This document shows, piece after piece, positions 1,915 through 31,859 of a DNA stretch of 35,564 bases. This DNA is from Bacilli bacterium. GTDB lineage: Bacteria > Bacillota_I > Bacilli_A > RF39 > UBA660. The DNA lies in contig JAFVEF010000050.1 of NCBI GenBank assembly GCA_017478105.1, positions 1 to 35,564 on the forward strand, read 5' to 3'. The notes beneath the pieces were generated by a model, which was not told where the DNA came from, did not search any database, and worked only from the letters and a program-made list of their open reading frames with translations. Made by a program: the position numbers and the translations under genes. Numbering within the stretch: position 1 is the first letter of the stretch; each line of letters begins with the position of its first letter.

Positions 1915-1991
1915 GTATCCGTAGCTCAGTAGGATAGAGCAATCGCCTCCTAAGCGGTAGGTCACGAGTTCAACTCTCGTCGGGTACACCA
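1915..1991 (+). tRNA. tRNA-Arg (anticodon CCT)
   Basis: A complete 77-nt cloverleaf with encoded CCA. Acceptor GTATCCG pairs with CGGGTAC, the D arm is GCTC/GAGC, and the anticodon loop CTCCTAA gives anticodon CCT, reading AGG. The T arm is ACGAG/CTCGT with loop TTCAACT. It is the intact left copy of a 42-bp direct repeat (1950-1991) whose right copy is at 5981-6022, so it is the likely integration site of the following element. Confidence 0.95.
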
Positions 1992-2002
1992 TATAAAAAT
2001 AT

Positions 2003-2033
2003 AAAGAATATAATTATTTGTATTCTTTTTTTT
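2003..2033 (+). terminator. Intrinsic terminator after tRNA-Arg
   Basis: AAAGAATA (2003-2010) pairs with TATTCTTT (2021-2028) over a 10-nt loop and runs into a T tract reaching 2033. If the element model is right, this terminator came in with the element. Confidence 0.7.
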
Positions 2034-2061
2034 ATGTGCTATAATTAAAATAGGATGTGAT
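2018..2061 (+). promoter_or_regulatory. Promoter and ribosome site of the large HEPN-like gene
   Basis: TTGTAT (2018-2023), 16 bp, TATAAT (2040-2045). The -35 lies inside the tRNA terminator hairpin. A GGATGTGAT stretch (2053-2061) serves as ribosome site, 4 nt before GTG 2066. Confidence 0.5.
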
Positions 2062-2065
2062 GCAC

Positions 2066-5000
2066 GTGAATAGCTCTTATATACAAAAGGAAATCGGAAC
2101 ATCTAATATGACAATTCTATATGCAAAAAAGTTACTACAAAGAGCAAGTATACTAATTGACAAAAAGAATGATACAGAAACGGATATAGATAAATTTATT
2201 TTATTAAAAACACTTTCTACAGATATTTGTTTTGCTTGTGAATTATTATTGAAAGCAATTATTAATGATTATAATGATGAACACGATTTTCATTCTTGGA
2301 AAACACATAATTTATATCAAATATATAATTATTTATCTGATGAAGATAAAAATTTTATATGCAATGAATTACAATTAAAACAATCTGAACTCGAATTAAT
2401 TCTCCAAGAAGATAATACTTCAGATGCCTTTATTAAAAGATATTTATATGAGAATAATACAGGTATACCGGATTATGGTTTTTTATGTGATTTTTCTAAT
2501 GCATTATTGAAATTAAAAAATGATAATAGTTTTTTTGATTTGAAAAGAATCAACATCTTACCAAAAGATTTTGATTATTCTTCCTTTACCTTTGATGAAA
2601 TATTAAAAAATCAAACAAAAATGATCGAAGATAAAGTTGAAATATTTAATATTACCGAAACAACAGATGAAACAGAAGAATATATTATAAAAAATATGAA
2701 ATCATGCGATTATGCTTTTTTTTCAGAATTGCGCTTTAAATACTTTGATAAAGCACAAAATCCAAAGAAGGAACATGATTTTGATAAATTATATAAAAGA
2801 TTAAATGATGCTTGTATGTTTCTAATATCCAAAAGCAGATATATGGATAGATATATGAATAGAAATTCAATAATCGATTTTAACTGGACATTACGTAGTT
2901 TAATGTATAGAGAAAACTTTAATGCAGGAGATACAGTCAGAGAACTTTTTGATGATATTAATGAAACATTTGAAAAAAGTAGGTTTTGTACAATTGACTA
3001 CTATGATAATTATTATGATGTAAAATATTTCTATGGTAGAATAAAGGATATAACAGATTTACTAATGGAAAGTGGAGAAAAAGTAAATAGAATACTAGAT
3101 AACAAAGAAAAACTTCTTGCTACATTTGGTAATGATTTTTTAATAATTATGAGTTTCACAGTAGAAGAAATGGCAAATATTGATATTAATTATTTAACTC
3201 AAATAAGTAGCTTAACTGATATAAAGAGTTGTCCGAAATCAATATTGCTAGAAACAGATGAAACAGTGAGAAATAAAGTATTTTATTTTCTAAAAAAAAT
3301 GCCAAACAAAAGCATTCCTATAAATATAAATCAAGTGATTGATGAAAATAATAATTCATATCATATTAATATGGAAAAATATGAAATTTGTGAAAAATTG
3401 AGTAGTAAAGATATTAAAGTAACAGAAAAAGAAATTGAAAAGTATTTAGAGTTATCTTATTACATAAATAATGAAGAAATACTATTGTATATTATCGCAA
3501 GTTCTTTAGATATTGATACATCAATTAAAAGATATAAGGAATTAAACGATTTGTGTCTAACAAAATTATCACACGATACAGATATTAATGTTTTTATAGA
3601 GAATGTAGGATATACATTTCTAAAAGATGGAAATTTAAATGAAATAATAAAAAAAATGAATTATTATGAATATTTTATTCAAGAATTAGTAGAAAATTGG
3701 CAAATAAATGATGAAGTTTTAAATTACCTAATAAACTATCCTATGGATAAGATAAAATCTCTATTAAAAATATATAAAGATTATGATTATCAACGCTATT
3801 TTATTTATCATATTCCATATATTTTAGAGAAAAATGAAGATGAAATAAGAAAACAACTTAGTGTTATTAAAGAAAACTCTGATATATTAGAAAAATATAT
3901 TGGCGAAACAAGTATACTTAAATGTGACTTAAATAGATTAGTTCACTATATTAAACAGTTTCCAGAACATGAATATGATTATATAAATCTAGATAATTTT
4001 ATAACAGGAAATGTAGAAAAAGCCTATGAAATCATGAAGAAAAAAGGATTAGAGATATTATGTGATGAATCAGGTTTCTTTAATAAAATAAAGGATTTAA
4101 ATATATTTTATGAGTTACTAAACAACGAGTTTTTTGAAAAAATAGAAAGCTCAAATTATGATGAGGATGATTTATCCGGTATTAAAGTATATATACAAAA
4201 AATATTTGAAAATACTAGAATAAAGGATGTATTAATTGATTTGCTTGATTTAAGAATAATTAAAGATAATCCTAAAATACTAAATGTTTTTCATCGTCAA
4301 ATAAGTACTTTGGAAAGTGTCTATCAACTAAACATATATAACACTTGGTATGAAAGAATAAAAAATAATAATATTAACTGTAATGGTAGTAAAATAAAAA
4401 TAGATGATAGTAAAAAAGAAAAAATATTGGAAGATATGGTAAATGTTATAACATACTCTTATGAAGAGGACTATACGAACAGATTTAATACTATCTTTTC
4501 AAATGCACAATTAGTAAGTAGTTTAAATAAAAAAATATTAAAAGAATATGATATAGAATTAATGAACAAGATAACATCAATTTCAAAATTTAAAGAGAAA
4601 GATTTTCCTAATTACGATTTTTTCGCAAATGTATTTGAACTTATAGATTATTATAATTTAAATGAAGATAAGGTTATAGAATTGTTTAATTGTCTTTATT
4701 CAATGAAAAAAGATCCAACTGTAATCGATTTCATAATAAAAATATGTGATACATGTAATGTAGAGAAAAAAAATATACATCTCTCGTCTTTTGATCAAAT
4801 AGATGGTGTTTTAGTAAAACATGTTGATATAATAGAAAAAAAACATAAATATATATTTAATGATAGTATACAAGAAAAAGAAATAAATAATGATTTAATT
4901 GAATATATATTATCTAAAATAAATAATTGTGATGAAGAAGAAGTAAAAAAATATATTTCTGAAATAAAAATCGAAAAACAAGAAGAAATAAATTCTGACT

Positions 5001-5260
5001 ATAATGAAGAAGGATTGAGAAATGAGTATCCATCATTATATGAGCTTATATATCCAGGTTATGATGAAAATATATCAATCGGTAGAAAAACTTTTGAAAC
5101 ATTAAGAGATAACTTAAAAAGTAGTTTTTTAGACTTGAAAAATAATATAGAAACGATTATTTCTACTAAATATTTTATAAGGAAGATTAAACAAAATGCA
5201 GAAAAATTGAAAAACAATTTTAAAAAGAAGGTAGATGAAAAATATGAACGAAAAAAATAA
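2066..5260 (+). CDS. Large helical protein with HEPN-like N-terminal domain (unknown function)
   Basis: About 1065 aa. The frame is open from GTG 2057; ATG 2060 and GTG 2066 are alternative starts, and GTG 2066 best fits the ribosome-site spacing used elsewhere here. Residues about 20-160 look HEPN-like: an ACELLLKAII helix, then KTHNLYQIYNYL, then a KRYLYEN segment, the arrangement seen in HEPN/AbiV-type proteins. I see no RX4-6H motif there, so catalytic RNase activity is not supported. The remaining 900 residues are rich in Lys, Glu, Ile and Asn, predicted mostly helical, with no signal peptide, membrane segment, Walker or protease motif. It is the only large gene between the tRNA-Arg repeats, has its own promoter and overlaps the next small gene. 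A defence or abortive-infection role is possible but unproven. Confidence 0.7.
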   Translation: MNSSYIQKEIGTSNMTILYAKKLLQRASILIDKKNDTETDIDKFILLKTLSTDICFACELLLKAIINDYNDEHDFHSWKTHNLYQIYNYLSDEDKNFICNELQLKQSELELILQEDNTSDAFIKRYLYENNTGIPDYGFLCDFSNALLKLKNDNSFFDLKRINILPKDFDYSSFTFDEILKNQTKMIEDKVEIFNITETTDETEEYIIKNMKSCDYAFFSELRFKYFDKAQNPKKEHDFDKLYKRLNDACMFLISKSRYMDRYMNRNSIIDFNWTLRSLMYRENFNAGDTVRELFDDINETFEKSRFCTIDYYDNYYDVKYFYGRIKDITDLLMESGEKVNRILDNKEKLLATFGNDFLIIMSFTVEEMANIDINYLTQISSLTDIKSCPKSILLETDETVRNKVFYFLKKMPNKSIPININQVIDENNNSYHINMEKYEICEKLSSKDIKVTEKEIEKYLELSYYINNEEILLYIIASSLDIDTSIKRYKELNDLCLTKLSHDTDINVFIENVGYTFLKDGNLNEIIKKMNYYEYFIQELVENWQINDEVLNYLINYPMDKIKSLLKIYKDYDYQRYFIYHIPYILEKNEDEIRKQLSVIKENSDILEKYIGETSILKCDLNRLVHYIKQFPEHEYDYINLDNFITGNVEKAYEIMKKKGLEILCDESGFFNKIKDLNIFYELLNNEFFEKIESSNYDEDDLSGIKVYIQKIFENTRIKDVLIDLLDLRIIKDNPKILNVFHRQISTLESVYQLNIYNTWYERIKNNNINCNGSKIKIDDSKKEKILEDMVNVITYSYEEDYTNRFNTIFSNAQLVSSLNKKILKEYDIELMNKITSISKFKEKDFPNYDFFANVFELIDYYNLNEDKVIELFNCLYSMKKDPTVIDFIIKICDTCNVEKKNIHLSSFDQIDGVLVKHVDIIEKKHKYIFNDSIQEKEINNDLIEYILSKINNCDEEEVKKYISEIKIEKQEEINSDYNEEGLRNEYPSLYELIYPGYDENISIGRKTFETLRDNLKSSFLDLKNNIETIISTKYFIRKIKQNAEKLKNNFKKKVDEKYERKK

Positions 5261-5441
5261 TAGTATAAATTATAAAAATGAAATCTACTATATAGTAAAT
5301 AAAAGAAGATACTTAGGAAATACATATCTATATGTAATCAACTGTTATGATAAGAATGATATTAAAATATTAAAATGTGCAGAAGATTTAAAAGAAGTTG
5401 ATGATATAAAAATAATAAGAAAACTTATGCTTCAGATATAA
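5244..5441 (+). CDS. Small translationally coupled protein of unknown function
   Basis: About 65 aa from ATG 5244; ATG 5235 is possible but only 3 nt from the AAGAAGG ribosome site. The start lies inside the end of the large HEPN-like gene in another frame, so translation is coupled. The sequence (YYIVNKRRYLGNTYLYVINCYD, here split as YYIVNKRRYL and GNTYLYVINCYD) recalls small beta-rich DUF1292-like proteins in which a short strand pattern precedes an acidic helix, but that likeness is weak. No signal peptide or membrane helix. Its position suggests a partner, inhibitor or immunity protein for the large protein; this is inference. Confidence 0.5.
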   Translation: MNEKNNSINYKNEIYYIVNKRRYLGNTYLYVINCYDKNDIKILKCAEDLKEVDDIKIIRKLMLQI

Positions 5442-5448
5442 TAAAAAA

Positions 5449-5607
5449 ACAAACTCTTTTGATAGAAGAGTAATTTATGTTATAAAGAATACATTGAAGG
5501 AAACTTCATAAAATAAAAAAGGGAACATTCAGTTTCGTGTGTTGAATGTCTACCTAAATTACTTTAGATTGACATTTAAGTCATAGACTTAAGTGTCATT
5601 TTTTTAT
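5449..5607 (+). ncRNA. Candidate structured RNA: four hairpins ending in a terminator
   Basis: A TATAAT at 5437-5442 would start transcription near 5449. Four hairpins then follow: 5453-5458/5466-5471; TGAAG-GAAA-CTTCA at 5495-5508 with a GNRA tetraloop; ACATTCA/TGAATGT at 5525-5531/5543-5549; and a 12-bp stem 5571-5582/5586-5597 followed by seven T. The last is a clear intrinsic terminator. The rest may be a small RNA of the element or only the 3' UTR of the upstream genes. No family was recognised. Confidence 0.35.
5571..5605 (+). terminator. Strong intrinsic terminator in the tRNA-Arg element
   Basis: GACATTTAAGTC (5571-5582) pairs with GACTTAAGTGTC (5586-5597), 12 bp with one wobble and a 3-nt loop, followed by A and seven T. 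It ends the transcript of the large HEPN-like gene and the small gene. Confidence 0.8.
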
Positions 5608-5730
5608 TACTAAAACCAGTAAGGTTAAGAGTAGTAAAATGAGTGATATGTAGCGAAGCAACTTGATGTTGTATTTATGCTTTTTCATTCTCTCAAAACC
5701 TCCTATCTATGTTGAATTGGAGGAGACACG

Positions 5731-5863
5731 ATGGCAACTAAATGTTCCTAAATTCAATGTAGCATATAAATATACATGCGTCAATCGAATAAACAACAAT
5801 AGACAAATGGACAGAAAAAAAGTGTCGCGAAAATATCGCATAATATTACAAAAAATCAAATAA
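5731..5863 (+). pseudogene. Decayed frame resembling the N-terminus of a serine recombinase
   Basis: An excellent ribosome site GGAGGA (5719-5724) precedes ATG 5731, but the frame breaks after MATKCS. Further on, in shifted frames, come YMRQSNKQQ (from 5773), NNRQMD, then KKVSRKYRIILQKIK to the stop at 5861-5863. Resolvase/invertase-type recombinases start with an aromatic-x-R-V-S-T segment, an RQ pair about ten residues later, and a KVSGKN...LQKML segment, and these pieces match in order with deletions and frameshifts. It lies about 120 bp inside the right tRNA repeat, where an integrase would be expected. Known: such recombinases mobilise elements. Inferred: this is the dead integrase. The match is short and could be chance. 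Confidence 0.38.
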
Positions 5864-5980
5864 AATTTATAATTTTTTTAAATGTTTAAAAATTTTTAAA
5901 AATAGAAAAGTTAGAAAATATATTGATTTTTAATAGTTTTAAAAATTTTGACTAGTTTTGAATTAATGCCAGTGTTTCTT
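5864..5980. other. Extremely AT-rich stretch at the right end of the element
   Basis: About 115 bp of nearly pure A/T with A-tract/T-tract runs (for example at 5893-5902 and 5936-5949) and no open frame. It is probably bendable DNA bordering the attachment site. Confidence 0.4.
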
Positions 5981-6022
5981 CTAAGCGGTAGGTCATGAGT
6001 TCGGTTCTCATCGGGTACACCA
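5981..6022 (+). repeat. tRNA-Arg 3' fragment (right attachment-site copy)
   Basis: 42 bp matching 1950-1991: 15 identical bases of anticodon arm and variable loop, then the T arm and acceptor with CCA. Five bases differ. Two of them (5996 T and 6010 A) change a C-G pair of the T stem into T-A, keeping the pairing. The T loop reads TTCGGTT and lacks the usual A58. No D arm, anticodon or 5' acceptor precedes it, so it is not a tRNA gene. On the insertion model this is the displaced original 3' end of the host tRNA. Confidence 0.85.
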
Positions 6023-6030
6023 TAAAGTAA

Positions 6031-6065
6031 AAAAAACTTCAGTTTACCAACAACTGAAGTTTTTT
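6031..6065. terminator. Bidirectional terminator after the tRNA fragment
   Basis: ACTTCAGTT (6036-6044) pairs with AACTGAAGT (6052-6060) over a 7-nt loop, with A6 before and T6 after, so it can terminate on either strand. It is probably the original terminator of the tRNA-Arg gene. Confidence 0.75.
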
Positions 6066-6150: not shown

Positions 6151-7932
6151 TTATAAAGTTTTTTCATATTCTTTTTTTCTACTAATAAGTATACCTAAAG
6201 CTCCAACAGATCCTAATAATGACATTGAGTAAGCAAATAAATTGCTTTCATCTCCAGTATTAGGAGAAACACGTTTTACAACCTCAACTGGTGGTTCTTC
6301 TTCAACCTCAACTGGAGGTTTTTCTTCAGGTTCAACTGGAGGTTTTTCTTCAGGCTCAACTGGAGGTTTTTCAGGTTCTTCAGGTGGTGGAGTATTATCT
6401 TTCTCATTTATAACAGTTAAATAAGTTTTATAATTCTCATCATATGGATCAAACCATCTAACTCCTAACAAGTTTTGATAACTTTCACCTTCTTCAGTAA
6501 CATTCTTAGTAGAATATACATATAAGAACATATCATCAGGATGTTTTTCTTCATCACTTATTAAGTAATAGAATAGAGCAGCATACTCTTCTGGTATTTT
6601 AGTATGATTATGTGCAGACCACCAATGTTGTGCTAATTTACCTAAACCATCACCATTATCTCTATCTTCAACATATCCTTTTGGATCAGATGGATCATAT
6701 CTATAATATCTTAAGAATCTAATATCTTCATAAACAATTTTTCCATCCTCATCTCTTACAATTTTACCATTTTCATCTCTTACAGCTTGTTTTGTAGTAA
6801 CTTCTGCAGATGTATAAGTTTTAAGAGCATATTCAGTAATAAATCTAACTTCAGTTTCACTTAATTCTGGGAATAACTCACTTACTTGACTTCTATGATA
6901 AATAATATCTAATACTTTATTATATAAATCATTATTACTCATAGAAACGTCTGAATCTGGAGTAAATGTTCTTAAATTATTTTCATCAAGTACTAATCCA
7001 TCATAACTGATTCCATTAGGTTCATCCCAATTTTGATTAACACAATATACTTCGTCTTTTACACCTTCACTCTCGATGTAGTAAAGAGCAACTCCACCAT
7101 AATGCCAACATACATCATGACTATCATCATGTTGAACATTTCCAGTAATATCTTTTACTTCAACTGTAACATTAAATTCTTGATCAGCTGAAGCAATATA
7201 TCCTACAGGAGCATTCTTCTCGCGTAAAATATAACTTCCTTCAGGAAGCATACTAATATGTTCTTCTCCATTAGAAATCCATTCATCTAAAACATTACCT
7301 TCTGAATCAACAATTTGTAAAGTAGCCCCAACTAAAGGATTTCCTTCTTTATCAACCTTAGTAGTAACAACAGATACTTTATGTGGCTCATTTGTTGTTT
7401 CATTATTTTGAGCAAGTGTTCTTAAAGGAGCTTCTTCTAATACTTCCTCATTTACTTCTTCAGAAGATTCAACAACCTCATCTTGTGAATTTACTTCATT
7501 TTCTACAACTTCTTCATTAGTAACATTCTCAGTCTCTAATACTTCTTTAGATACAGTTTCAGTTTCTAAAGTTTTCTCTTCACTAACAACTTCAGGAACA
7601 GATGTAACTTCTTCAAATACTTCTTCCTCAGAAACAACTTCATTTAAAGTAACGTCCTCAGGAACTTCCTCTGAAACTACCTCATCCAAAGCAACTTCTT
7701 CTGGAATAGTTTCTAAATCAACAGTCTCTTCTTCAGGAACAGATGTTACTTCCTCGACAACAACTTCTTCAGAAACCTCTTCAACAGGCTCTTCATTTAC
7801 TACTTCTTCAATTGGCTCTTCATTCATTTCTTCCGCAAAAACTGGTTGAGCAGCAGCTATAGCATATGAACTAGATAGTGCTACTGAAAGTCCAAGAGAT
7901 GCAGCATTTACTTTTAGTTTTTTTATATTCAT
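6151..7932 (-). CDS. Cell-wall-anchored surface protein, SpaA and thioester-type domains
   Basis: 593 aa, exported. Residues 1-33 are a signal peptide ending VFAEE. Residues 34-170 are low-complexity Glu/Val-rich repeats. Residues about 185-262 form a SpaA/Cna_B prealbumin-like domain (KVDKEGNPLVGATLQI, then LREKNAPVGYIAS). About 270-480 resembles a thioester (TQXA) adhesin domain with VYCVNQ (Cys297). The C-terminus has PPVEPEEK repeats, the sortase motif SPNTGD (LPXTG variant), a hydrophobic helix and RKKEYEKTL. Sortase would link it to peptidoglycan. Odd point: the family TQxA motif reads TEYA (Glu367), so the Cys-Gln thioester may not form. The AAGGAGG ribosome site 6 nt upstream fixes the ATG at 7932. 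No sortase gene is in the window. Confidence 0.88.
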   Translation of the reverse strand: MNIKKLKVNAASLGLSVALSSSYAIAAAQPVFAEEMNEEPIEEVVNEEPVEEVSEEVVVEEVTSVPEEETVDLETIPEEVALDEVVSEEVPEDVTLNEVVSEEEVFEEVTSVPEVVSEEKTLETETVSKEVLETENVTNEEVVENEVNSQDEVVESSEEVNEEVLEEAPLRTLAQNNETTNEPHKVSVVTTKVDKEGNPLVGATLQIVDSEGNVLDEWISNGEEHISMLPEGSYILREKNAPVGYIASADQEFNVTVEVKDITGNVQHDDSHDVCWHYGGVALYYIESEGVKDEVYCVNQNWDEPNGISYDGLVLDENNLRTFTPDSDVSMSNNDLYNKVLDIIYHRSQVSELFPELSETEVRFITEYALKTYTSAEVTTKQAVRDENGKIVRDEDGKIVYEDIRFLRYYRYDPSDPKGYVEDRDNGDGLGKLAQHWWSAHNHTKIPEEYAALFYYLISDEEKHPDDMFLYVYSTKNVTEEGESYQNLLGVRWFDPYDENYKTYLTVINEKDNTPPPEEPEKPPVEPEEKPPVEPEEKPPVEVEEEPPVEVVKRVSPNTGDESNLFAYSMSLLGSVGALGILISRKKEYEKTL

Positions 7933-8046: not shown

Positions 8047-9681
8047 ATGAAAGAGAGTAATGATCTAGTATATAAAATATTAAATGAAAACTATAACTTA
8101 ACAGAAGATGAAAAGAAACAACTAAATTTATCTATATTTTGTTTAATAAAAGAAAAGTTAATAAAAAAAGATATTCCAAACAAAAAAATATATTATGATT
8201 TAGAAGGAAAAAAGAGTTTAGAAAACATTCTAGAAATTGGAAATACTATAAAAGACCAACTAGTAAATGATGGTAAAAGTCTTGATCAAACAGTTTCAGT
8301 TGAATTATTAAATGATTATATATATCATGGTGATAAAGAAGCATTAAAAAAAGCAATCTATTATACTCATAGATTAAGAGACTGGATTGTTCATAAAGAT
8401 TCATATATCGATGGAAATAAGCTAGTAATAAAACCTTTTCAATCAGATATAAATCCTGATTCTAATTACACTATAGAACTAAATTTAGATACTATAAATA
8501 AGATGTGCAATAAAAGTAATTATGGATTAAATATTGAAGTTCAAAATAATTATTCACCTCATAGAATGATTGGTTCGTCTGGAACTGATAGTCTTTATAT
8601 GATAAGAAAAAAGGGAAGAGTATTAATAGTTAGCAAAGAAACTGGTTTCGCAACTATCGTTGATAATCATGACGATTATCGTAAAGCAATTTCTCTTATG
8701 AAAAGATTAAGTGCAAGTTATAATAATGATGGAAATCTTCCATCTCATTCTATTATTTTTGATTTTTCACAGCAATTAGAAGGAAAATTAGATGGTAATA
8801 TTATATATGAAGCTATAGCACAATATGAGCTTTTAAAAAGAAAAGGAAATAAAAAACCAGTTATCTTCAAGTTTACTAAAGAATTAACAAAAAATGAAAA
8901 ACTATTAAGAACTATGTTAGAAAAATTAGATATTGATAAAGACCAAATAAAAGAAAACAATTACTATATTGCCGCTATATATAATTATGCTTTAAATGTT
9001 TATGCTGAAAAAGATAAAAATAAACCAAACCCAAGGTATTTTGATTTAAAACAATTTAAAATATCTAAAATAGATAATAGTCAGTATAAAGAATCAAATG
9101 AAGCCATAAATAATAAAATTAATAACTTTAAAAGAGTAGTTAATAAGCAGACGAATAATCTAAAATATATAAGTAATTTATCTAAACAAAGAGAAATAAC
9201 TCTTGAATTATTTTACATTCTACTAGAATTATATTCTAAGATAGAGGCTCATCTTACTCTTCAAAAAGATTTAATCGCAACAAGTATAAGAAATAGTATA
9301 GATCATGGAAATATCAGTATTGATCCCAAAACTAAAGACATGGTTTTATATGATTCTGAAGATAATACTAAAGAAATAAATGATGATAATTGTAAAATAA
9401 AAATAGAAACAAATATAGAAGACTTATATAGACATCTAGAAGAATATAGTAACGAACCTATTAAAGATTATTCTTTTGAAGATGTAATAGAAGAACTTGA
9501 CTACATAATTCATAATAAAAAAGCAATTACAAGTCTAAAAAATAATACTAATATAGTTATTAATTTATTATTAGAAAGAAAAGTAAACTTAGAAGATATA
9601 ACTTTAAAAGAAGTATGTGAAGAAGTAAAAAATAATCTTAGAAAAGAATTAGCTTCTAATATAAAAAAATCTATAAAATAG
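8047..9681 (+). CDS. Uncharacterised protein with two RX4H (HEPN RNase) motifs
   Basis: 544 aa, cytoplasmic, no signal or membrane helix. Two HEPN-type motifs are visible: Arg111-Asp-Trp-Ile-Val-His116 and Arg415-Asn-Ser-Ile-Asp-His420. Each follows a helical stretch and is followed by a similar pattern: SYIDGNKLVIKP then TIELNLDTINKM in the first half, ISIDPKTKDMVLY then KIKIETNIEDLYRHL in the second. This suggests two HEPN domains flanking a middle region (about 170-380) that I do not recognise. HEPN proteins with RX4-6H are usually metal-independent RNases that work as dimers, in toxin, abortive-infection and CRISPR (Cas13, Csm6) contexts. Here both sites sit on one chain, as in Cas13, but the protein is too short for a known Cas13 and no CRISPR array is present. 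RNase activity is inference. Confidence 0.75.
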   Translation: MKESNDLVYKILNENYNLTEDEKKQLNLSIFCLIKEKLIKKDIPNKKIYYDLEGKKSLENILEIGNTIKDQLVNDGKSLDQTVSVELLNDYIYHGDKEALKKAIYYTHRLRDWIVHKDSYIDGNKLVIKPFQSDINPDSNYTIELNLDTINKMCNKSNYGLNIEVQNNYSPHRMIGSSGTDSLYMIRKKGRVLIVSKETGFATIVDNHDDYRKAISLMKRLSASYNNDGNLPSHSIIFDFSQQLEGKLDGNIIYEAIAQYELLKRKGNKKPVIFKFTKELTKNEKLLRTMLEKLDIDKDQIKENNYYIAAIYNYALNVYAEKDKNKPNPRYFDLKQFKISKIDNSQYKESNEAINNKINNFKRVVNKQTNNLKYISNLSKQREITLELFYILLELYSKIEAHLTLQKDLIATSIRNSIDHGNISIDPKTKDMVLYDSEDNTKEINDDNCKIKIETNIEDLYRHLEEYSNEPIKDYSFEDVIEELDYIIHNKKAITSLKNNTNIVINLLLERKVNLEDITLKEVCEEVKNNLRKELASNIKKSIK

Positions 9682-9874: not shown

Positions 9875-10900
9875 ATGAAATTTAATGAAGATACTATTAA
9901 AACATTTTTAGAATTTACTCAAAAAGAAAGAACACTAGATGCTGTTTGTAATAAGCTTGAAATGGGTGAATTAGAAGTTCTAGGATTAGTCTCTTATATT
10001 AGAAAAAAAGGTACTAATATTGCGATTAGAAATAATTTAGATAGAATATCTATGATTAACATGGGAGATAAAAAACTACATAAGAAGAAGACTAAGCAGT
10101 TTTATACAGATGAGACTAATGAAATAAAATTTATTTTAATTTCAGATACAAGATTAGGTTCTAAGTATCAACAATTATCAATATTAAATGATATTTATAA
10201 AAAAGGTTATGAAATGGGATATCATAATGTATTGTTATGTGGTAATATTTCAGCAGGATTATATAGCATAAAAGATATTTATTCAGAAACAAATTTTATA
10301 AATGATACTTATGGTCAAATAGATTATATAATTAAAAACTATCCTAAAGTAGAAGGAATGAAAACATACTTTATAACTGGAAAAGTTGATGATAAACATC
10401 TTTCTATGGAAAACATTAGTATAGGTAAAAGAATATCTGAAGTAAGAGATGATATGATTTTCTTAGGTGAGAATTCATGTGATATTAAAATTGATAACGT
10501 TACAATGAAATTATTAAGTAATAAACTAGCAAAAACTTATACAGTATCATATCGTACCCAACAACATATAGGTTCAATCAGAAGTGAAGATAAACCAGAT
10601 ATTTTCGCAAATGGAGGCTTATTACAAGCAGAAAAGTTTAAATATAGAAATGTTCATTGCCTATCTGTTCCAAGTGTTTGTGCTACAACCAAAGAAATGG
10701 ATGAAAAAAGATATGCCAACACTATAGGTGCTTGGTATATGACAATTACAGTTGATGAAAAAGGTTTATTAAAAGATTGTAGATCATTATTATCACCATA
10801 TTATGTAACTGAGGATAATGATTACTTATATTCAAAACAATTAAAAATAACAAACCAAGAAGAAGGAAAAAAATTAGTAAAGAAAGGGGGGAATAAATAA
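9875..10900 (+). CDS. Metallophosphoesterase-like pseudoenzyme
   Basis: 341 aa. It aligns along its length with the next gene: an N-terminal helical, HTH-like domain of about 75 residues, then a calcineurin-type phosphoesterase fold. Shared landmarks are SDTRLGSKYQQL, DYIIKNYPKVEGMKTYFITG and the closing GAWYMTITVDEKG. Nearly all metal-binding motifs are destroyed: DTH is DTR (Asp91, Arg93), GDLSD is GNISA, GNHD is GKVD, the His segment is SNKLA, and GHYH is GGLL. The enzyme should be inactive, and I infer a structural or regulatory partner of its active neighbour. GTGGAGG precedes ATG 9875. Its stop overlaps the next start by one base (TAATG). Confidence 0.82.
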   Translation: MKFNEDTIKTFLEFTQKERTLDAVCNKLEMGELEVLGLVSYIRKKGTNIAIRNNLDRISMINMGDKKLHKKKTKQFYTDETNEIKFILISDTRLGSKYQQLSILNDIYKKGYEMGYHNVLLCGNISAGLYSIKDIYSETNFINDTYGQIDYIIKNYPKVEGMKTYFITGKVDDKHLSMENISIGKRISEVRDDMIFLGENSCDIKIDNVTMKLLSNKLAKTYTVSYRTQQHIGSIRSEDKPDIFANGGLLQAEKFKYRNVHCLSVPSVCATTKEMDEKRYANTIGAWYMTITVDEKGLLKDCRSLLSPYYVTEDNDYLYSKQLKITNQEEGKKLVKKGGNK

Positions 10901-11913
10901 TGGATAAAAAAGATTTAAATTATAATAAAATAAATAAAATGTATGGTTATATGAAACATAATATGCCAGTAGATACTTTTATGGAAAAATTTGGTTTTAA
11001 TGAAAAAGAAGTCTATGGTTTAGTAGAAATATGTAAATCATTTGGTAAAAAAATAGAATTAGTTTATGATGGTAAAGTATTAGTCTTTTCCAAAAATAAA
11101 AAAATAATGCCATCCACCTCAAAACTACCAGTCGATAGTGAAAAACTAAATCATATCGAGTTATGTGTTATATCAGATACCCATTTAGGTAATAATCATC
11201 AGCAACTTCATTTATTAAACAACGTCTATGAAGAAGCATATAATAGGGGTATTAGAACAGTATTACATGCCGGTGATTTATCAGATGGAAACTATACAAA
11301 TAGACCAGAAAGTTATTATGAACAATTTATTCATGGCTTTGATGAACACGCTGATTATATTATTGAATGGTATCCTAAAGTAGATGGTATAAAGACATTA
11401 TTTATTTCAGGTAATCATGATTTTACAAATAATAGAAATAATGGAGCAACCTTAGGAAAATGGATTTCTGAAAAAAGAGATGACCTAGAATACCTAGGAC
11501 AAGATAATCATACGGTTGTGATCAATAAAGTAAAAATAATGTTAGATCACCCAGGAGGAGGATCTGCTAAATCAATTTCATATAAACTACAACAGAAAAT
11601 AGAAGGAATGGAATCAACACATAAACCTAATGCTTTAATTACTGGACACTATCATAAAAGTTATTACATGCTTTACAACAATGTTCACGCATTGTTAGCA
11701 CCAGCATTATGTGATTATACACCATTTCAAAAAAGAATGGGTTTATCTAACGATTTAGGTGCATATTTCATAGATATCTATGCTGACAAAAATGGTCGTA
11801 TACAATATTTTGAACCTGAAGAAATTAGGTTTGATAGAAAAGACGTTTGGGATGAAGTTGGTAAAGATAAAAGAAAAGTAAAAAAACTAGAAATAAAAAA
11901 TGGAGTATATTAA
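10900..11913 (+). CDS. Metallophosphoesterase (calcineurin-like), N-terminal HTH-like domain
   Basis: 337 aa. The di-metal phosphoesterase motifs are complete and in order: SDTH (Asp93, His95), GDLSD (Asp126), GNHD (Asn172, His173), DHPGG, and GHYH (His250, His252). Such enzymes cleave phosphomonoesters, phosphodiesters, nucleotides or DNA; the substrate cannot be read from sequence. The first 75 residues (FMEKFGFNEKEVYGLVEICK) look like a small helix-turn-helix or winged-helix module, suggesting nucleic-acid or partner binding. It is co-transcribed with the degenerate paralogue upstream (one-base overlap) and followed at once by a terminator. No signal peptide, so cytoplasmic. Confidence 0.88.
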   Translation: MDKKDLNYNKINKMYGYMKHNMPVDTFMEKFGFNEKEVYGLVEICKSFGKKIELVYDGKVLVFSKNKKIMPSTSKLPVDSEKLNHIELCVISDTHLGNNHQQLHLLNNVYEEAYNRGIRTVLHAGDLSDGNYTNRPESYYEQFIHGFDEHADYIIEWYPKVDGIKTLFISGNHDFTNNRNNGATLGKWISEKRDDLEYLGQDNHTVVINKVKIMLDHPGGGSAKSISYKLQQKIEGMESTHKPNALITGHYHKSYYMLYNNVHALLAPALCDYTPFQKRMGLSNDLGAYFIDIYADKNGRIQYFEPEEIRFDRKDVWDEVGKDKRKVKKLEIKNGVY

Positions 11914-24095: not shown

Positions 24096-24938
24096 ATGAA
24101 AACATGTTTAGTATTAGAAGGCGGGGGTCTAAGAGGTATTTATACCGCCGGTGTCTTAGATGAAATGTTAGATGATAAGATTAAGGTTGATGCCATAATA
24201 TCTGTATCAATGGGTTCTTTAATAGGAATTAATTATTTATCAAAACAAAAAGGAAGAGCCTTAAGATATAATTTAAAATATTGTAATGATAAAAGATTTA
24301 TGGGATTTCACTCTTTGATAACAACTGGTAATATTGCCAATAAAGAATTTGACTACTATGAAATACCTGATAAATTAGATCCATTTGATTATAAAGAATT
24401 TAAAAAATCTAAAACTAAGTTTTATTGTACTGTAAGTAACTTAGACACTGGAAAAGCTGAATACATTGAAATAACTGACTGCAAAAGTCAAGTAGAATAT
24501 TTACGAGCAGGAAGCTCAATGCCTGGAGTATCTAAGATAGTTAAAATAGATGGAAATAAATATTTAGATGGAGGAATTACCGACTCGATTCCAATAAAAA
24601 AAGCTCAAGAACTAGGTTATGATAAAATAATAGTAGTAACAACAAGACCAATTGAATATCGAAAGAAAAAATCTAAAATGAAAACAGTTCAAACTATCTA
24701 TCGTAATTATAGTAATTTCAAAAAAGCAATTGCTTCAAGAAACAAAAGATATAATGAAACAGTAGAAGAAATAATAAAACTAGAAAAAGATAAAAAAATA
24801 TTTGTAATTAGACCATCTAAAGCAGTTAAAATAAGTAGAGTAGAAAAAAATAAAGATAAAATTCAAGCTCAATATAATTTAGGAGTAGAAGATTATCGCA
24901 ATAAGAAAAATGAATTAAAAAAATATTTAGAGAAATAG
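24096..24938 (+). CDS. Patatin-like phospholipase
   Basis: 280 aa. Oxyanion loop EGGGLRGIYTAGVLDEM at the start, nucleophile elbow SVSMGSLIG near residue 39 (the usual first Gly of GXSXG is Ser), and the catalytic Asp in DGGITDSIP. Patatin-like enzymes are Ser-Asp dyad acyl hydrolases of membrane lipids; this one resembles the YjjU-type bacterial group. Cytoplasmic, no signal. AGGTGA upstream, 22 nt after the preceding gene, so it probably belongs to the LtaS-like operon. The C-terminus is Lys-rich and helical. Confidence 0.87.
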   Translation: MKTCLVLEGGGLRGIYTAGVLDEMLDDKIKVDAIISVSMGSLIGINYLSKQKGRALRYNLKYCNDKRFMGFHSLITTGNIANKEFDYYEIPDKLDPFDYKEFKKSKTKFYCTVSNLDTGKAEYIEITDCKSQVEYLRAGSSMPGVSKIVKIDGNKYLDGGITDSIPIKKAQELGYDKIIVVTTRPIEYRKKKSKMKTVQTIYRNYSNFKKAIASRNKRYNETVEEIIKLEKDKKIFVIRPSKAVKISRVEKNKDKIQAQYNLGVEDYRNKKNELKKYLEK

Positions 24939-24956
24939 TAAGATTATTTCTTTTTT
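24931..24956 (+). terminator. Terminator after the patatin-like gene
   Basis: AGAAATA (24931-24937) pairs with TATTTCT (24945-24951) and continues into T. It overlaps the stop codon. A TATACT -10 for the next gene lies at 24971-24976. Confidence 0.55.
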
Positions 24957-24992
24957 CTTGTATTTTTTGTTATACTAATATTAGGTGATTAT

Positions 24993-25895
24993 ATGGATAG
25001 TAACGCAATAATTGAAAGAGAAAAAGCTTTTATAGATAAAATATCAGATAAATATAATTATGATTCTAATATAAGACACTTACTATATCTTATAATCCCA
25101 GCTTTTATTATTAAATATGATTTAAATAAAGAAACTCTAGTCAAAAATACTTTTGAAAATATAAGAATTATTTCTTCAAAGAAAAAAGATGATAAAGTAA
25201 AAGCTTATTATTCTTCAATACTAAAAGAAAAGAATAATGACTATTATTCAGAAAAATACATGGTAATAAAAAACTATGAAAAAATATCTCTAATAGATTT
25301 ATTAGAAAACTTAGTACATGAATTTAATCATGCGATTAATTCATATACAAATGAAATAAAAGTATTAAAAAAAAGTATTTATTTAAGAACTGGCTTATCA
25401 TATCGTATCTATGATAAGAATACTCTCCAATTTATAAAAAAAGATAATTCCTTTATTTTAGAAGAAATAATAAATACTAAACAAACAGAAGAAATAATTA
25501 ATATCATTAAAGGATTCGATAAAAATAATAAAATAATAGAAAATACAATTTATGCTATTAACGGAGAAACATCAAAAAGTTATGAATCAAATTCCTATTT
25601 TCTTCAAAGTTATATTTGTAAAGAAATGCTAAATAATAGAACTTTTATAACAACATTAGAGAAATTACGTTTATCAGGAGATGTATATGATATTGATAAA
25701 TGGTTTGACAATATAACAGGAATAGAATTATCATATAAAAAACTAATTAATGAATTATTTGAAGTTTATAATTTAGAAATAGATTATTCAAAAAGAAAGT
25801 TTTTCAAAAAAATAACTTTAAATAAAATTAGAAATAAAGTATCGGTTATTAAAAATATAATAGATACATATAACAATAATGTAAATTATAAATAA
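24993..25895 (+). CDS. Hypothetical protein with HEXXH zinc-protease-like motif
   Basis: 300 aa, cytoplasmic. A zinc-metalloprotease-type motif HEFNH occurs at residues 109-113 in a helix (NLVHEFNHAINSYTN). A third ligand is not certain; a Glu in GETSKSYESNSYF, about 80 residues on, is a candidate. No signal peptide or membrane helix, and no family recognised. Start ATG 24993 follows AGGTGAT, with TATACT at 24971-24976. It lies just upstream of murD with a 15-nt gap, so it is likely co-transcribed, which says little about function. Confidence 0.7.
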   Translation: MDSNAIIEREKAFIDKISDKYNYDSNIRHLLYLIIPAFIIKYDLNKETLVKNTFENIRIISSKKKDDKVKAYYSSILKEKNNDYYSEKYMVIKNYEKISLIDLLENLVHEFNHAINSYTNEIKVLKKSIYLRTGLSYRIYDKNTLQFIKKDNSFILEEIINTKQTEEIINIIKGFDKNNKIIENTIYAINGETSKSYESNSYFLQSYICKEMLNNRTFITTLEKLRLSGDVYDIDKWFDNITGIELSYKKLINELFEVYNLEIDYSKRKFFKKITLNKIRNKVSVIKNIIDTYNNNVNYK

Positions 25896-28058: not shown

Positions 28059-28135
28059 GGCGAGATAGCTCAGTTGGCTAGAGCGCTCGGTTCATACCCG
28101 AAAGGTCGTGGGTTCGACTCCCTCTCTCGCTACCA
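28059..28135 (+). tRNA. tRNA-Met (anticodon CAT), elongator type
   Basis: 77 nt with encoded CCA. Acceptor GGCGAGA/TCTCGCT (first pair G-T), D arm GCTC/GAGC, anticodon loop TTCATAC, T arm GTGGG/CCCTC-type with loop TTCGACT. It resembles Bacillus elongator tRNA-Met and lacks the three G-C pairs of an initiator anticodon stem. An elongator is favoured, but a CAT tRNA could also be modified to read AUA. Confidence 0.92.
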
Positions 28136-28145
28136 TTTGTAATAC

Positions 28146-28170
28146 ACTCTAACTTAGTTAGAGTTTTTTT
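28146..28170 (+). terminator. Terminator after tRNA-Met
   Basis: CTCTAAC (28147-28153) pairs with GTTAGAG (28157-28163) around a TTA loop, then seven T. Confidence 0.85.
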
Positions 28171-28220
28171 ATTTATAAAGCACTAAATAATAACTATGAT
28201 ATAATAATAGTGGTGATAAA

Positions 28221-28892
28221 ATGAATAAGACATTAAAACCAAAAGACTATCGAAGGATATTTTTCTTATATGGAATAGTATACGCAACAATTCCTATTAT
28301 ATTTACAGAAATAACATGGGATATTCTTGCTAATCTAAGTGGTTTAAGTGAAGGACTAATAAGAGATCTTATAGAATCATTTTTTAGGGCAGCTCTAATA
28401 GAAGAATCTTTTAAATTCTATGGCTTTATGAAAGCTAATAAAGAATATCATTTCTGTAACGAAAAAGAATATATGTTAGGTGCTGGAATGATTGGTCTTG
28501 CATATGGAATAATAGAAAAAGTTGCATCAGGGAATGCCCTAGCAATTATTCTTGGAATTATTTTTCCAATGCATATTATATGGCAAATGAATCAAGGAAG
28601 ACATTTTTATAAATACCAAAAAGCCAAAGTAGAAAATGATTCTAAAACAGCCAAAAAAGAATTATTTAAAGCAACATTTATTATTTTCTTAATACATGGA
28701 TGTTGGGATGCCTTACTAAGTTTCATTAGTTACTTTGCTAATTCATCAAAAATAGCAAATTCTGATATGATAGGTGGACTTATATTTATATTTACAATTC
28801 TATTTGGAATCATTTATATAATAATCAGTATTATTAAGATTAAAAAAGTATTAAAAGAAAATAAAGTCACAAATAAGAAAGAAAAAATATAA
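28221..28892 (+). CDS. PrsW-family intramembrane protease
   Basis: 223 aa with about six membrane helices. The PrsW (glutamic-type) signatures are seen: EESFK at residues 61-65, a GIIEK segment, FPMHIIWQMNQ with His118, and IHGCWDAL with His159. PrsW proteases cut membrane anti-sigma factors or precursors at site 1. No anti-sigma factor gene lies nearby, so the substrate is unknown. TATAAT at 28200-28205 and GTGGTGAT lie just upstream of the ATG. Confidence 0.78.
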   Translation: MNKTLKPKDYRRIFFLYGIVYATIPIIFTEITWDILANLSGLSEGLIRDLIESFFRAALIEESFKFYGFMKANKEYHFCNEKEYMLGAGMIGLAYGIIEKVASGNALAIILGIIFPMHIIWQMNQGRHFYKYQKAKVENDSKTAKKELFKATFIIFLIHGCWDALLSFISYFANSSKIANSDMIGGLIFIFTILFGIIYIIISIIKIKKVLKENKVTNKKEKI

Positions 28893-28906
28893 TGTGTTAA
28901 AAATCA

Positions 28907-28934
28907 TTGCTTGTAGCAACAATATATTTATAAT
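28907..28934 (+). promoter_or_regulatory. Promoter of the XRE regulator
   Basis: TTGCTT (28907-28912), 16 bp, TATAAT (28929-28934), then AAAGGAG before ATG 28964. Confidence 0.6.
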
Positions 28935-28963
28935 AAACTGGACTTGTTGAAAGGAGAAATAAT

Positions 28964-29470
28964 ATGTTAAAAGATAATTTAAAAACATTAAGAAAAAACA
29001 AAGGACTTTCACAAGAAGAATTAAGTATTAAGCTAAATGTAGTAAGACAAACTATTTCAAAATGGGAAACAGGATTATCTGTTCCAGATGCCGAGATGTT
29101 AGTAAAAATATCAGAACTTTTTGAAACCCCAGTTAATGAAATACTTGGAGAAAACTTAGAGGAAAAAGAAACAAATGACTTAAAAGTTATATCAGAAAAA
29201 TTAGAAGTAATAAATGATCAGTTATCTAAAATTCAAAAAGAGAAAAGAAAAAGAACTATTACTTTTTTAACCATCATAGATATATGTGTAATATCATTAT
29301 TTATATTATTAGCATTATTAAACAAACCATATAGATCTTGGGATTATAATATTATTGAATGGGCTATTTTAGGAACATTTTGGGAATCATTTGAATGGAT
29401 ATTTATGAGATTAGCTCCTATTATAGTAATAGTATTAACGACTATAATAATAATTAAAAAGAATAAATAG
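28964..29470 (+). CDS. XRE-family helix-turn-helix regulator with two membrane helices
   Basis: 168 aa. Residues 1-65 are an XRE DNA-binding domain (LRKNKGLSQEELSIKLNVVRQTISKWE, shown in part: GLSQEELSIKL, RQTISKWETG). A short helical linker with coiled-coil character (about 70-95) is followed by two membrane helices (about 100-120 and 146-165). Membrane-tethered XRE proteins of this design are common in Firmicutes and often sense envelope or drug stress; the signal here is unknown. AAAGGAG upstream. It is followed after 27 nt by the MmcQ-type gene. Confidence 0.85.
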   Translation: MLKDNLKTLRKNKGLSQEELSIKLNVVRQTISKWETGLSVPDAEMLVKISELFETPVNEILGENLEEKETNDLKVISEKLEVINDQLSKIQKEKRKRTITFLTIIDICVISLFILLALLNKPYRSWDYNIIEWAILGTFWESFEWIFMRLAPIIVIVLTTIIIIKKNK

Positions 29471-29497
29471 TGTTATAATAACTAATAGGTGATTATT

Positions 29498-30514
29498 GTG
29501 AATATAGAAAATGATATATTTAAAAGAACTAATGTAAACTTAAAAAAATTAGAAAAATATGGTTTTATTAAAGAAAAGGATACTTATACTTTTGAAAAAA
29601 ACTTTTTAAATAATGATTTTAAGGCAATAATAAATATTGATAATAAAGGACATGTTAATGGAAAAGTAATTGATTTACAAGTTGATGAAGAATATTCAAA
29701 TATCAGAACTGAAATGACTGGAGAATTTGTAAATAATGTAAGAGAAAACTATAAAAACATTTTACTCGATATTAGAAAAAATTGTTTTGAAACAAATTAT
29801 TTTATTTCAAACCAGGCCAATAGAATTAATAAATATATAAAAGATAATTATAATAATGAACCAGAATTTTTATGGGAAAAGTTTCCTGGATATGGTATTT
29901 ATAGAAATGATAAGAATAATAAATGGTATGCAATAATAATGAATTTAGATTTCTCTAAATTAGATAACTTATCTGGTGAAGTAGAAATCATAAATTTAAA
30001 ATTAGATGAAAGTGAAATTACTGAATTATTGAAAGAAAAAGGATTTTATAAAGCCTATCATATGAATAAGAATGATTGGATATCAGTAATACTAAATGAT
30101 ACTTTAAGTGATGAGAAAATAATATCTTTATTAAAAAAATCATATAATCTAATAAATGAACCAGAAGAATGGATAGTTCCTGCCAATCCTAAATATTATG
30201 ATGTTATTAATTGTTTTAATGATACTGATGAAATAATTTGGAAACAATCTAGTGCTATTCATATTAATGATATAGTTTATTTATATGTAGCTGATCCATA
30301 CTCTAAAATTATGTATAAATGTAGGGCAATAGAAGTAAACATTCCATATGAATACAGTGATAAAAATATTACTATGAAACATGTTATGAAGATTAAATTA
30401 TTAAAAAGATTAGATAGTAAGAACTATACTTTTGAATATTTAAATAATATAGGAATTAAAGCAATAAGAGGTCCTAGAAAAATAACAAAAGAAATTAGTA
30501 AAAAACTAATATAA
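29498..30514 (+). CDS. MmcQ/YjbR-family protein fused to an EVE/PUA-like domain
   Basis: 338 aa, start GTG 29498 (AGGTGAT ends 4 nt upstream; the frame is open from GTG 29489). Residues about 1-115 and 125-225 match the MmcQ/YjbR (CyaY-like) fold: EFLWEKFPGYGIYRND, KWYAIIMNLDFSKL, and SDEKIISLLKKSYNLI. From about residue 228 (EEWIVPANPKYYDVINCF, then IWKQSSAIHINDIVYLYVADP) it resembles an EVE/PUA-type beta-barrel, a fold that reads modified bases in RNA or DNA. MmcQ proteins are described as small DNA-binding-like proteins of unclear role, so any function is open. No active-site residues can be named. Confidence 0.72.
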   Translation: MNIENDIFKRTNVNLKKLEKYGFIKEKDTYTFEKNFLNNDFKAIINIDNKGHVNGKVIDLQVDEEYSNIRTEMTGEFVNNVRENYKNILLDIRKNCFETNYFISNQANRINKYIKDNYNNEPEFLWEKFPGYGIYRNDKNNKWYAIIMNLDFSKLDNLSGEVEIINLKLDESEITELLKEKGFYKAYHMNKNDWISVILNDTLSDEKIISLLKKSYNLINEPEEWIVPANPKYYDVINCFNDTDEIIWKQSSAIHINDIVYLYVADPYSKIMYKCRAIEVNIPYEYSDKNITMKHVMKIKLLKRLDSKNYTFEYLNNIGIKAIRGPRKITKEISKKLI

Positions 30515-30540
30515 ATGTTCATATAAATTATTTTTCATAT

Positions 30541-30574
30541 ACCCCCTTATTTACTTTTATTACTTGAATATAAT
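30541..30574 (+). promoter_or_regulatory. csoR promoter with candidate metal-repressor operator
   Basis: TATAAT lies at 30569-30574. A C5 tract (TACCCCCTTAT, 30539-30549) lies in the -35 region, a conspicuous run in such AT-rich DNA. CsoR/RcnR-family operators carry G/C tracts flanked by A/T, so this is a plausible autoregulatory site. Inference. Confidence 0.4.
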
Positions 30575-30597
30575 ATACTTTAAATGGTGGTGATTAA

Positions 30598-30888
30598 ATG
30601 TCAAAATGTTGTAAAAAGACTGAAAGAGATGATGAAGAAAAGAAGAAATTATTAAGTAGAATTAATAGGATATCAGGGCAGGTTAATGGTATTAAAAAAA
30701 TGATTGAGGAAGATGACTATTGCAATGATATATTGATTCAAATAATTGCTACTGAAAAATCATTAAAAAGTTTAGCAAATATAATGTTTGAAAACCACGT
30801 TTACAGATGTATTTCTAATGACTTAGAAGAAGGGAATATGGAAGTAATTGATGAATTAACAAGTTTATTTAAAAGATTTAATGATTAG
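30598..30888 (+). CDS. csoR: CsoR-family copper-sensing repressor
   Basis: 96 aa all-helical DUF156 protein. The Cu(I) ligand set is complete: Cys42 in DDYCNDIL and His67 and Cys71 in ENHVYRC. The 25- and 4-residue spacing equals that of the CsoR ligands Cys36, His61 and Cys65. The conserved RINRISGQVNGIKKMIEE helix starts the core. CsoR binds operator DNA without copper and releases it with Cu(I). A Cys-rich small gene starts 10 nt after its stop, so the pair forms a copper-responsive operon. GGTGGTGAT precedes the ATG. No CopA or CopZ is in the window. Confidence 0.9.
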   Translation: MSKCCKKTERDDEEKKKLLSRINRISGQVNGIKKMIEEDDYCNDILIQIIATEKSLKSLANIMFENHVYRCISNDLEEGNMEVIDELTSLFKRFND

Positions 30889-30898
30889 GAGGGATAAA

Positions 30899-31051
30899 AT
30901 GGAAGAAAAGAAATGTAATTGTGGTCCAGATTGTACATGTGGTTGCCAAGAAGGAAAAGAATGTACATGTGGTGGTAACTGTAATTGTGGCCCTGAATGC
31001 ACATGTGGTTGCCAAGAAGGAAAAGAATGTACATGTAATGAAAATAAATAA
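30899..31051 (+). CDS. Metallothionein-like Cys-rich protein, 50 aa
   Basis: 50 aa, 14 of them Cys, all in CxC or CxxxC clusters. It consists of two near-identical units spaced 22 residues apart: CNCGPDCTCGCQEGKECTC (from residue 6) and CNCGPECTCGCQEGKECTC (from residue 28). The DNA repeats with a 66-bp period. AGGAGG (30887-30892) overlaps the csoR stop and sits 6 nt before ATG 30899. Co-transcription with a CsoR sensor implies Cu(I) binding and storage or detoxification, like bacterial metallothioneins; which metal is bound is inference. A terminator follows at once. It is short enough to be missed by length cut-offs. Confidence 0.85.
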   Translation: MEEKKCNCGPDCTCGCQEGKECTCGGNCNCGPECTCGCQEGKECTCNENK

Positions 31052-31063
31052 TAAGTATTTTAT

Positions 31064-31092
31064 AAAAAGGAAACAAAGCTGTTTCCTTTTTT
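31064..31092 (+). terminator. Terminator of the csoR-metallothionein operon
   Basis: AAAAAGGAAAC and GTTTCCTTTTTT pair over a short AAAGCT-type loop, ending in T6. Confidence 0.85.
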
Positions 31093-31097
31093 AATTG

Positions 31098-31126
31098 TTG
31101 AGTCTTACTACATTATAGTTTATAAT
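31098..31126 (+). promoter_or_regulatory. Promoter of the lipoprotein gene
   Basis: TTGAGT (31098-31103), 17 bp, TATAAT (31121-31126), then GGAAGTGAT before ATG 31147. Confidence 0.6.
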
Positions 31127-31146
31127 ATAGAAGGAAGTGATAAGTT

Positions 31147-31686
31147 ATGAAAAAAGTAGTTTTAAGTTTAATAATTATATTATTAATTTGTATGATCTCA
31201 GGATGTAAAAGTAACGAAAAAAAAATAAAGAATAATGAAATCTTATATGATATGGCAGTAAATTATATAATTAGTAACGATGATAGTGAAGATAGAGGTA
31301 AAGAAAGATATAATATGTTTGCTGACTATATTAGGTTTGAAACAACTAAAGATAATAAATATAGATATGCTTATATGTGGATAGCAACAGAATCATATTA
31401 TGTAGCTGATAATAAAATAGTTAGCACAACAGGAAGCTCTATACCATATAAGTTTACGTTTGAAATGAAAAAAGATAAAGTAGTAAAATATGAAACCCCT
31501 GAAGATGGAAATGGATACGCTAAGTCTATTAAGAAAATGTTCCCAGACGATATTGAAAATAAAGTAATAAATTATAAATACTCAAGCGATAAAATTATTA
31601 GAGATGTAAAAGATTTTTATAGAGACATAAGTGATCAAGAAATTTATACATATACTGGCGAAGAATATATTAAACTAAATAAATAA
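31147..31686 (+). CDS. Lipoprotein of unknown function
   Basis: 179 aa. The signal sequence ends in a lipobox (ISGC, Cys20), so it is a membrane-anchored exported lipoprotein. The mature part is rich in Lys, Asp and Tyr, has no further Cys and no family I recognise. Own promoter, and a terminator downstream (31717-31744). Not evidently tied to the copper genes upstream, since a terminator separates them. Confidence 0.75.
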   Translation: MKKVVLSLIIILLICMISGCKSNEKKIKNNEILYDMAVNYIISNDDSEDRGKERYNMFADYIRFETTKDNKYRYAYMWIATESYYVADNKIVSTTGSSIPYKFTFEMKKDKVVKYETPEDGNGYAKSIKKMFPDDIENKVINYKYSSDKIIRDVKDFYRDISDQEIYTYTGEEYIKLNK

Positions 31687-31716
31687 AATGTAAATAAGAT
31701 TTTGTATTAATTAAGG

Positions 31717-31744
31717 GAAAAGCAAATAATAGCTTTTCTTTTAA
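31717..31744 (+). terminator. Terminator of the lipoprotein gene
   Basis: GAAAAGC (31717-31723) pairs with GCTTTTC (31732-31738) over an 8-nt loop, then T-rich sequence. Confidence 0.7.
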
Positions 31745-31784
31745 TTGCTATTTAAAAAAAGATGAGTTAAAATAAATTAGAGAT

Positions 31785-31859
31785 TGCCCCATAGCCAAGC
31801 GGTAAGGCAGTGGACTCTGACTCCATTACGCGTTAGTTCGAATCTAACTGGGGCAGCCA
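31785..31859 (+). tRNA. tRNA-Gln (anticodon CTG)
   Basis: 75 nt with encoded CCA. Acceptor TGCCCCA/TGGGGCA, discriminator G, AGCC D arm, anticodon loop CTCTGAC giving CTG (reads CAG), T loop TTCGAAT. The body strongly resembles Bacillus tRNA-Gln. CAG is rare in the genes here, so a dedicated CTG isoacceptor is mildly surprising; a TTG partner is presumably elsewhere. Confidence 0.94.

Follow-up and report, generated by a model that had tools for sequence, protein, structure and literature searches.

An integrase-less island in a Bacilli tRNA-Arg gene, with a predicted toxin-antitoxin module beside its attachment end

Results

Organization of the tRNA-Arg locus

The window analysed here is a stretch of 35,564 nucleotides that makes up an entire contig (C10) of the draft genome of an uncultured gut Bacilli bacterium, which is 86% complete and divided over 61 contigs. 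Both ARAGORN and Rfam call a tRNA-Arg(CCU) gene near its left end, 17 bp downstream of an RNase J gene, and the two genes are adjacent in most of the genus. Inspection of the DNA that follows confirms the 42-bp gapless direct repeat of the tRNA 3′ half reported in the initial annotation, with 37 of 42 positions identical and five mismatches. This similarity is far beyond chance, as the next best match in the window carries 19 mismatches and shuffled sequences give 19-21. Neither an integrase nor an integrase fragment lies between the two repeat copies, in agreement with the earlier remark that no intact integrase is present. The interval does hold several features absent from the earlier list: a 1067-aa open reading frame (ORF), a 63-aa ORF, a predicted toxin-antitoxin (TA) module at 5474-5800 and an attachment end (Table 1).

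Table 1. Positions of features at the tRNA-Arg island in the window.
Feature	Position	Strand	Basis
tRNA-Arg(CCU), host 5′ half with 3′ half most likely supplied by the element (attL)	1915-1991	+	ARAGORN, Rfam, RNase J adjacency
Left repeat copy, tRNA 3′ half most likely brought by the element	1950-1991	+	Repeat and comparison with relatives' tRNA
Terminator-like stem with T-run past the tRNA (element side)	2003-2033	+	Read from the sequence
1067-aa orphan cargo ORF	2057-5260	+	ORF call
63-aa ORF overlapping the end of the cargo gene	5250-5441	+	ORF call
Promoter-like site of antitoxin RNA	about 5459-5486	+	Sequence conserved in alignment
Predicted antitoxin RNA, with terminator 5570-5598 at its end	~5490-5605	+	Fold z -4.1, terminator prediction
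Predicted type I toxin, 30 aa, MKKHKYNIKLLRYISLILLLLTLLVLVIKK, with AGGAGG ribosome site	5688-5596	-	Intact in most copies
Predicted toxin mRNA, 5′-3′ long-range pairing, masked ribosome site	5755-5510	-	Fold z -6.05
Promoter-like site of toxin mRNA	5784-5756	-	Promoter prediction
Integrase-type attR arm, common to integrase-bearing elements	5803-5980	+	Sequence matches
Arm-type repeat GTCGCGAA and decayed second copy ATCGCATA	5824-5839	+	11 bp apart, about -153/-142 from core
Right repeat copy, displaced original tRNA 3′ half (attR core)	5981-6022	+	Repeat and tRNA comparison
Likely old tRNA terminator	6031-6065		Terminator prediction

The paired T-stem change described earlier is likewise present, with ACGAG/CTCGT in the left copy and ATGAG/CTCAT in the right. 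The right copy differs by one mismatch from the tRNA-Arg genes found beside RNase J in three relatives (G022, G014 and G010), and the left copy by four. Joining 1915-1949 to the right copy yields a perfect tRNA-Arg that is one base off the G022 gene over 77 bases, and the tRNA now in place is four bases off. Because the relatives' tRNA is closer to the right copy, that copy is read as the displaced original end, as the initial annotation had proposed, and the left copy was most likely supplied by the element. Terminator prediction also supports the second terminator noted beyond the right copy, which is likely the old terminator of the tRNA. The locus has the arrangement of a tRNA-gene island, with an intact tRNA followed downstream by a displaced 3′ fragment in the same orientation, and we consider it virtually certain that ~4.0 kb of foreign DNA was inserted in the tRNA-Arg(CCU) gene. 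Further right, the genes at 9875-11913 and 24096-25895 are located downstream of the same tRNA in relatives. A surface-protein gene at 6151-7932 was considered as a marker of the old flank and dropped, as relatives carry it elsewhere or in the opposite orientation.

Cargo genes and the predicted toxin-antitoxin module

The 1067-aa protein has no homologue in Pfam, NCBIfam, PHROGs, PADLOC, PDB, phages or plasmids, and none was found in pattern scans of GTDB and IMG/VR or in 394 other genomes of the class. One match, in G053 (E 7.7e-4), was rejected since it spans just 72 C-terminal residues, and an AlphaFold model made without an alignment was uninformative (pLDDT 35). The 63-aa ORF has no family match. 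None of the island proteins matches a PHROG, and the phage regulatory, replication or packaging genes that characterize phage satellites (PICI-like) are absent from the island.

The TA module occupies ~320 bp between the cargo and the attR arm, and copies are also dispersed elsewhere in the genus. Its predicted toxin is hydrophobic, ends in KK and is largely kept across copies, with a pN/pS of about 0.48. A hydrophobic peptide of fewer than 60 aa with a charged C-terminus and a ribosome site is what is expected of a type I toxin, and small size, hydrophobicity and a C-terminus rich in lysine are typical of the type I toxins found on mobile elements in Clostridia (PMC6563280). A plus-strand RNA is predicted from the sequence to overlap the toxin message. 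Over 19 copies, the 5′ end of this message pairs with its 3′ end in 98.8% of cells, and the masking of GGAGG by CCUCC is 100% paired. Covariation is modest, with 14 cells changed on both sides, a count that 0 of 500 shuffles reach; since a slide by one column gives a similar count, the evidence is conservation of pairing and not covariation. These features make the module a probable type I TA system of par-like layout.

As in par/Fst systems (PMC7472228), the predicted organization involves convergent transcripts, antisense overlap of the toxin message, a masked ribosome site and a small hydrophobic peptide. The Fst/Ldr signature consists of a PXXXG-type motif and a conserved tryptophan, which is valine in the FstpAD1 prototype (PMC7472228); in contrast, the toxin described here has neither the PXXXG motif nor the conserved tryptophan. 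Members of its peptide family are present in 47 of the 193 bacterial-family genomes sampled (41 genera). The family scores above threshold against no model in Pfam, NCBIfam, PHROGs or Rfam, and with a loosened threshold Rfam returned nothing beyond chance-level matches. The host carries a second chromosomal copy of the module on contig C44, with a 93%-like toxin, which could neutralise addiction. In several genomes, copies of the predicted module follow tRNA-Ala, -Leu, -Met and -Arg genes at a distance of ~30-120 bp (L114, L119, L124, L127 and L028).

The attR arm and its integrase family

The 178 bp to the left of the right repeat copy match DNA that separates tRNA-Arg 3′ halves from a tyrosine integrase gene in G027 and G013. 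The integrase adjoining the matching arm is a protein of ~590 aa from gut Bacilli, and the genes beside the arm in G027 and G013 are both frame-broken. When GTDB genomes were scanned with an alignment built on this integrase, 19 close loci emerged, at 47-100% identity and labelled Bacilli or neighbouring Firmicutes; the named records are mostly gut Bacilli metagenome genomes. A CTCCTAA core is located 194-334 bp past the integrase stop in 13 of the 19 loci; the tRNA 3′ half accompanies it in 12 of these, and the contig of the remaining one (L193) ends within the core. Core variants were also observed, namely CTCCGAA in L203 and L204 and another variant in L205. Eleven of the 13 loci with the CTCCTAA core contain a GTCGC repeat with 11-bp spacing at about -155/-144 from the core. 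The same arm repeat is found in the integrase-less ends, where one of its two copies is decayed in the island and in L058; the pentamer occurs six times in the whole window, counting both strands.

Taken together, the arm and core suggest that a tyrosine integrase of this conjugative-element-linked family very probably acted at the site, a family of which one member (in G028) adjoins a type IV secretion system (T4SS) coupling protein gene. In the island, one core base is altered (TCTTCTAAG for TCTCCTAAG), as is the second arm repeat, changes that may have left this copy unable to excise. The host genome, at 86% completeness, contains no close member of the integrase family (best E 3e-9), and one could be located in the missing part. 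Global-alignment identities are inflated for so short and AT-rich an arm (shuffles reach 68-79%), so only the identity to G023 given below and BLAST E-values were used.

Two related loci bear mention. In G027, two tandem attR sites (L039, 1453 and 15143) each follow an integrase gene, one of which is frame-broken and the other fused to an XRE domain. In G028, a tRNA-Arg 5′ half whose 3′ half is broken (L062, about 2260-2360; C8:3303) shares its contig with an ICE-type integrase ~41 kb away.

Occupied and empty sites in relatives

Among the 39 genomes of the genus that were searched, no other has the 4-kb cargo, so the island is not vertically shared. The initial annotation had held that possession of the same 4 kb by all relatives, with vertical similarity, would speak against an insertion, and this pattern is not what we find. 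It had also predicted an empty site in related genomes. A sister element in this tRNA gene bears the prediction out; for the island itself, no empty site with its own right flank was found among the genomes compared. In G015 the tRNA is followed by a 1.2-kb segment and then by a 48-bp exact repeat, and in G034 the tRNA is joined straight to a right flank corresponding to that of G015. The two genomes are 91.0% identical over 199 bp to the right of the repeat or core and 91.5% identical upstream, versus 76.9% beyond the left copy, which is background (shuffled range 68-83%).

At the same RNase J-tRNA-Arg locus, G023 contains an element with 8.0 kb between its repeat copies. There the host tRNA-Arg differs in sequence, and the two repeat copies agree with it, being identical over 44 bp; in sequence terms, the repeat cores follow the host tRNA. 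The G023 element (L058, 3126-5012) carries a large serine recombinase, which indicates that some members of the family do carry recombinases.

A shared TA and attR end with differing cargo

The TA module and the attR arm form one contiguous block in five species (the host of the island, G015, G002, G025 and G023), and a search of the 19 loci with an integrase found no TA module. Between the island and G023, the block is 90.9% identical and the attR arm alone 96%, versus 78.2% for RNase J. Identities this far above that of RNase J indicate that the TA and attR end probably moved horizontally. The cargo differs among the island, G015 and G023, the three cases in which both boundaries are visible; the left sides of the G002 and G025 elements are hidden by contig ends. 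None of the five elements contains an integrase fragment.

Discussion

The sequence and its comparison with relatives show that DNA was inserted, that the original tRNA end was displaced and that the attachment arm is related to those of integrase-bearing elements. In the proposed mechanism, a tyrosine integrase would cleave tRNA-Arg(CCU) inside its anticodon loop (CTCCTAAG) and insert a circle of ~4.03 kb, such that the element supplies a new tRNA 3′ half as the left copy and the original half is pushed to the position of the right copy. The TA module, situated between the cargo and attR, would penalise loss of the element. The element would belong to a non-autonomous lineage that retains one TA and attR end, picks up varied cargo and moves with the aid of a related integrase, such as one carried by an ICE.

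Our best reading, to which we assign a probability of roughly 0.65, is a CIME-like, non-autonomous tRNA-Arg element that possibly moved in trans; for spread in trans taken by itself, we see the odds as even. The choice between a satellite-like and a decayed element posed by the initial annotation proves to be the appropriate one, and the shared TA-attR end tilts the balance towards a non-autonomous lineage over decay, short of proof. The opposing account, which we regard as less likely, is a dead remnant, in which the integrase and transfer genes of an inserted ICE or IME decayed on the spot, leaving the cargo and both att sites (a CIME by decay). Such decay would accord with the match of the arm to integrase-bearing ends, the T4SS coupling protein gene next to the related G028 integrase, the broken reading frames of the integrases beside the arm in G027 and G013, and the altered core and second arm repeat of the island itself. 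However, the island keeps no trace of an integrase gene, and the junction found in five species would demand either that the integrase was lost once and the product then spread, or that the same loss happened several times. Given the same TA/attR block, the differing cargo and the lack of integrase fragments, one integrase loss followed by spread helped in trans is the account that requires the least effort, with repeated decay of an ancestor that had both integrase and module as a less likely alternative.

Explanations that involve no mobile element are far less probable. A duplication of the tRNA, tandem or partial, followed by divergence could place a tRNA fragment beside a tRNA, but a conserved integrase-type arm precedes the fragment, which begins at the anticodon loop, is closer to the intact tRNA of relatives than the local tRNA is, and marks a site that is occupied or empty in sister species; we consider this origin very improbable. 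An assembly chimera deserves mention as the window is a whole contig of a fragmented metagenome-assembled genome, yet we give it slightly less credence still, as the RNase J-tRNA-Arg locus of G023 contains the right end too, at 91% identity, and the genes on either side are the expected neighbours.

The non-autonomous element favoured here is of a kind that is itself well known. Its anatomy fits the definition of a CIME (cis-mobilizable element; PMC5704250), as both att sites are kept, integration and transfer genes are lacking and the target is a tRNA gene. A CIME also derives from an ICE or IME and moves in cis with an accreted element; the homology of the attR arm to integrase-bearing elements and the coupling protein gene next to the G028 integrase bear on the first point, and the tandem att sites of the genus (G027) on the second. 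The difference lies in the single TA and attR block with cargo that varies across species, which points to the spread of a lineage. As in tRNA islands of the Islander kind (PMC4383910), the target is regenerated by the island, the displaced 3′ fragment lies downstream in the same orientation and the site is of the anticodon-centred type, whereas Islander requires an integrase inside and this island is without one. SGI1 and NBU1, which are IMEs with TA modules (PMC5704250), share site-specific insertion and a likely stabilising module; IMEs encode their own integrase and the island encodes none, which sets it apart from that class.

What is new is the conserved TA end common to integrase-less elements with different cargo, together with a toxin-like family not filed in databases. 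More tentatively, and with rather less than even odds, these elements may constitute a minimal-cassette family (tRNA-Arg attL, any cargo, TA and attR) that dropped its integrase once and borrows that of resident ICEs to move between species of gut Bacilli. Island finders that require an integrase, such as Islander, miss such elements. If the shared end does mark a trans-mobile lineage, searching for this end alone would offer a route to the cargo islands of uncultured gut bacteria, and would bring to light a type I toxin-like family, not filed in databases, that occurs in about a quarter of the bacterial-family genomes sampled.

Other features of the window

Beside the island, a 544-aa ORF (8047-9681) has no family match and a single 43% relative in the genus, located at another place in G033. 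Further along the window (28059-31859), the distance from tRNA-Met to tRNA-Gln is 3.7 kb, versus 1.0 kb in G017. This stretch includes an XRE regulator (28964-29470) that is 91% identical to the XRE part fused to the C-terminus of an integrase in G027 (L039, 2-1207).
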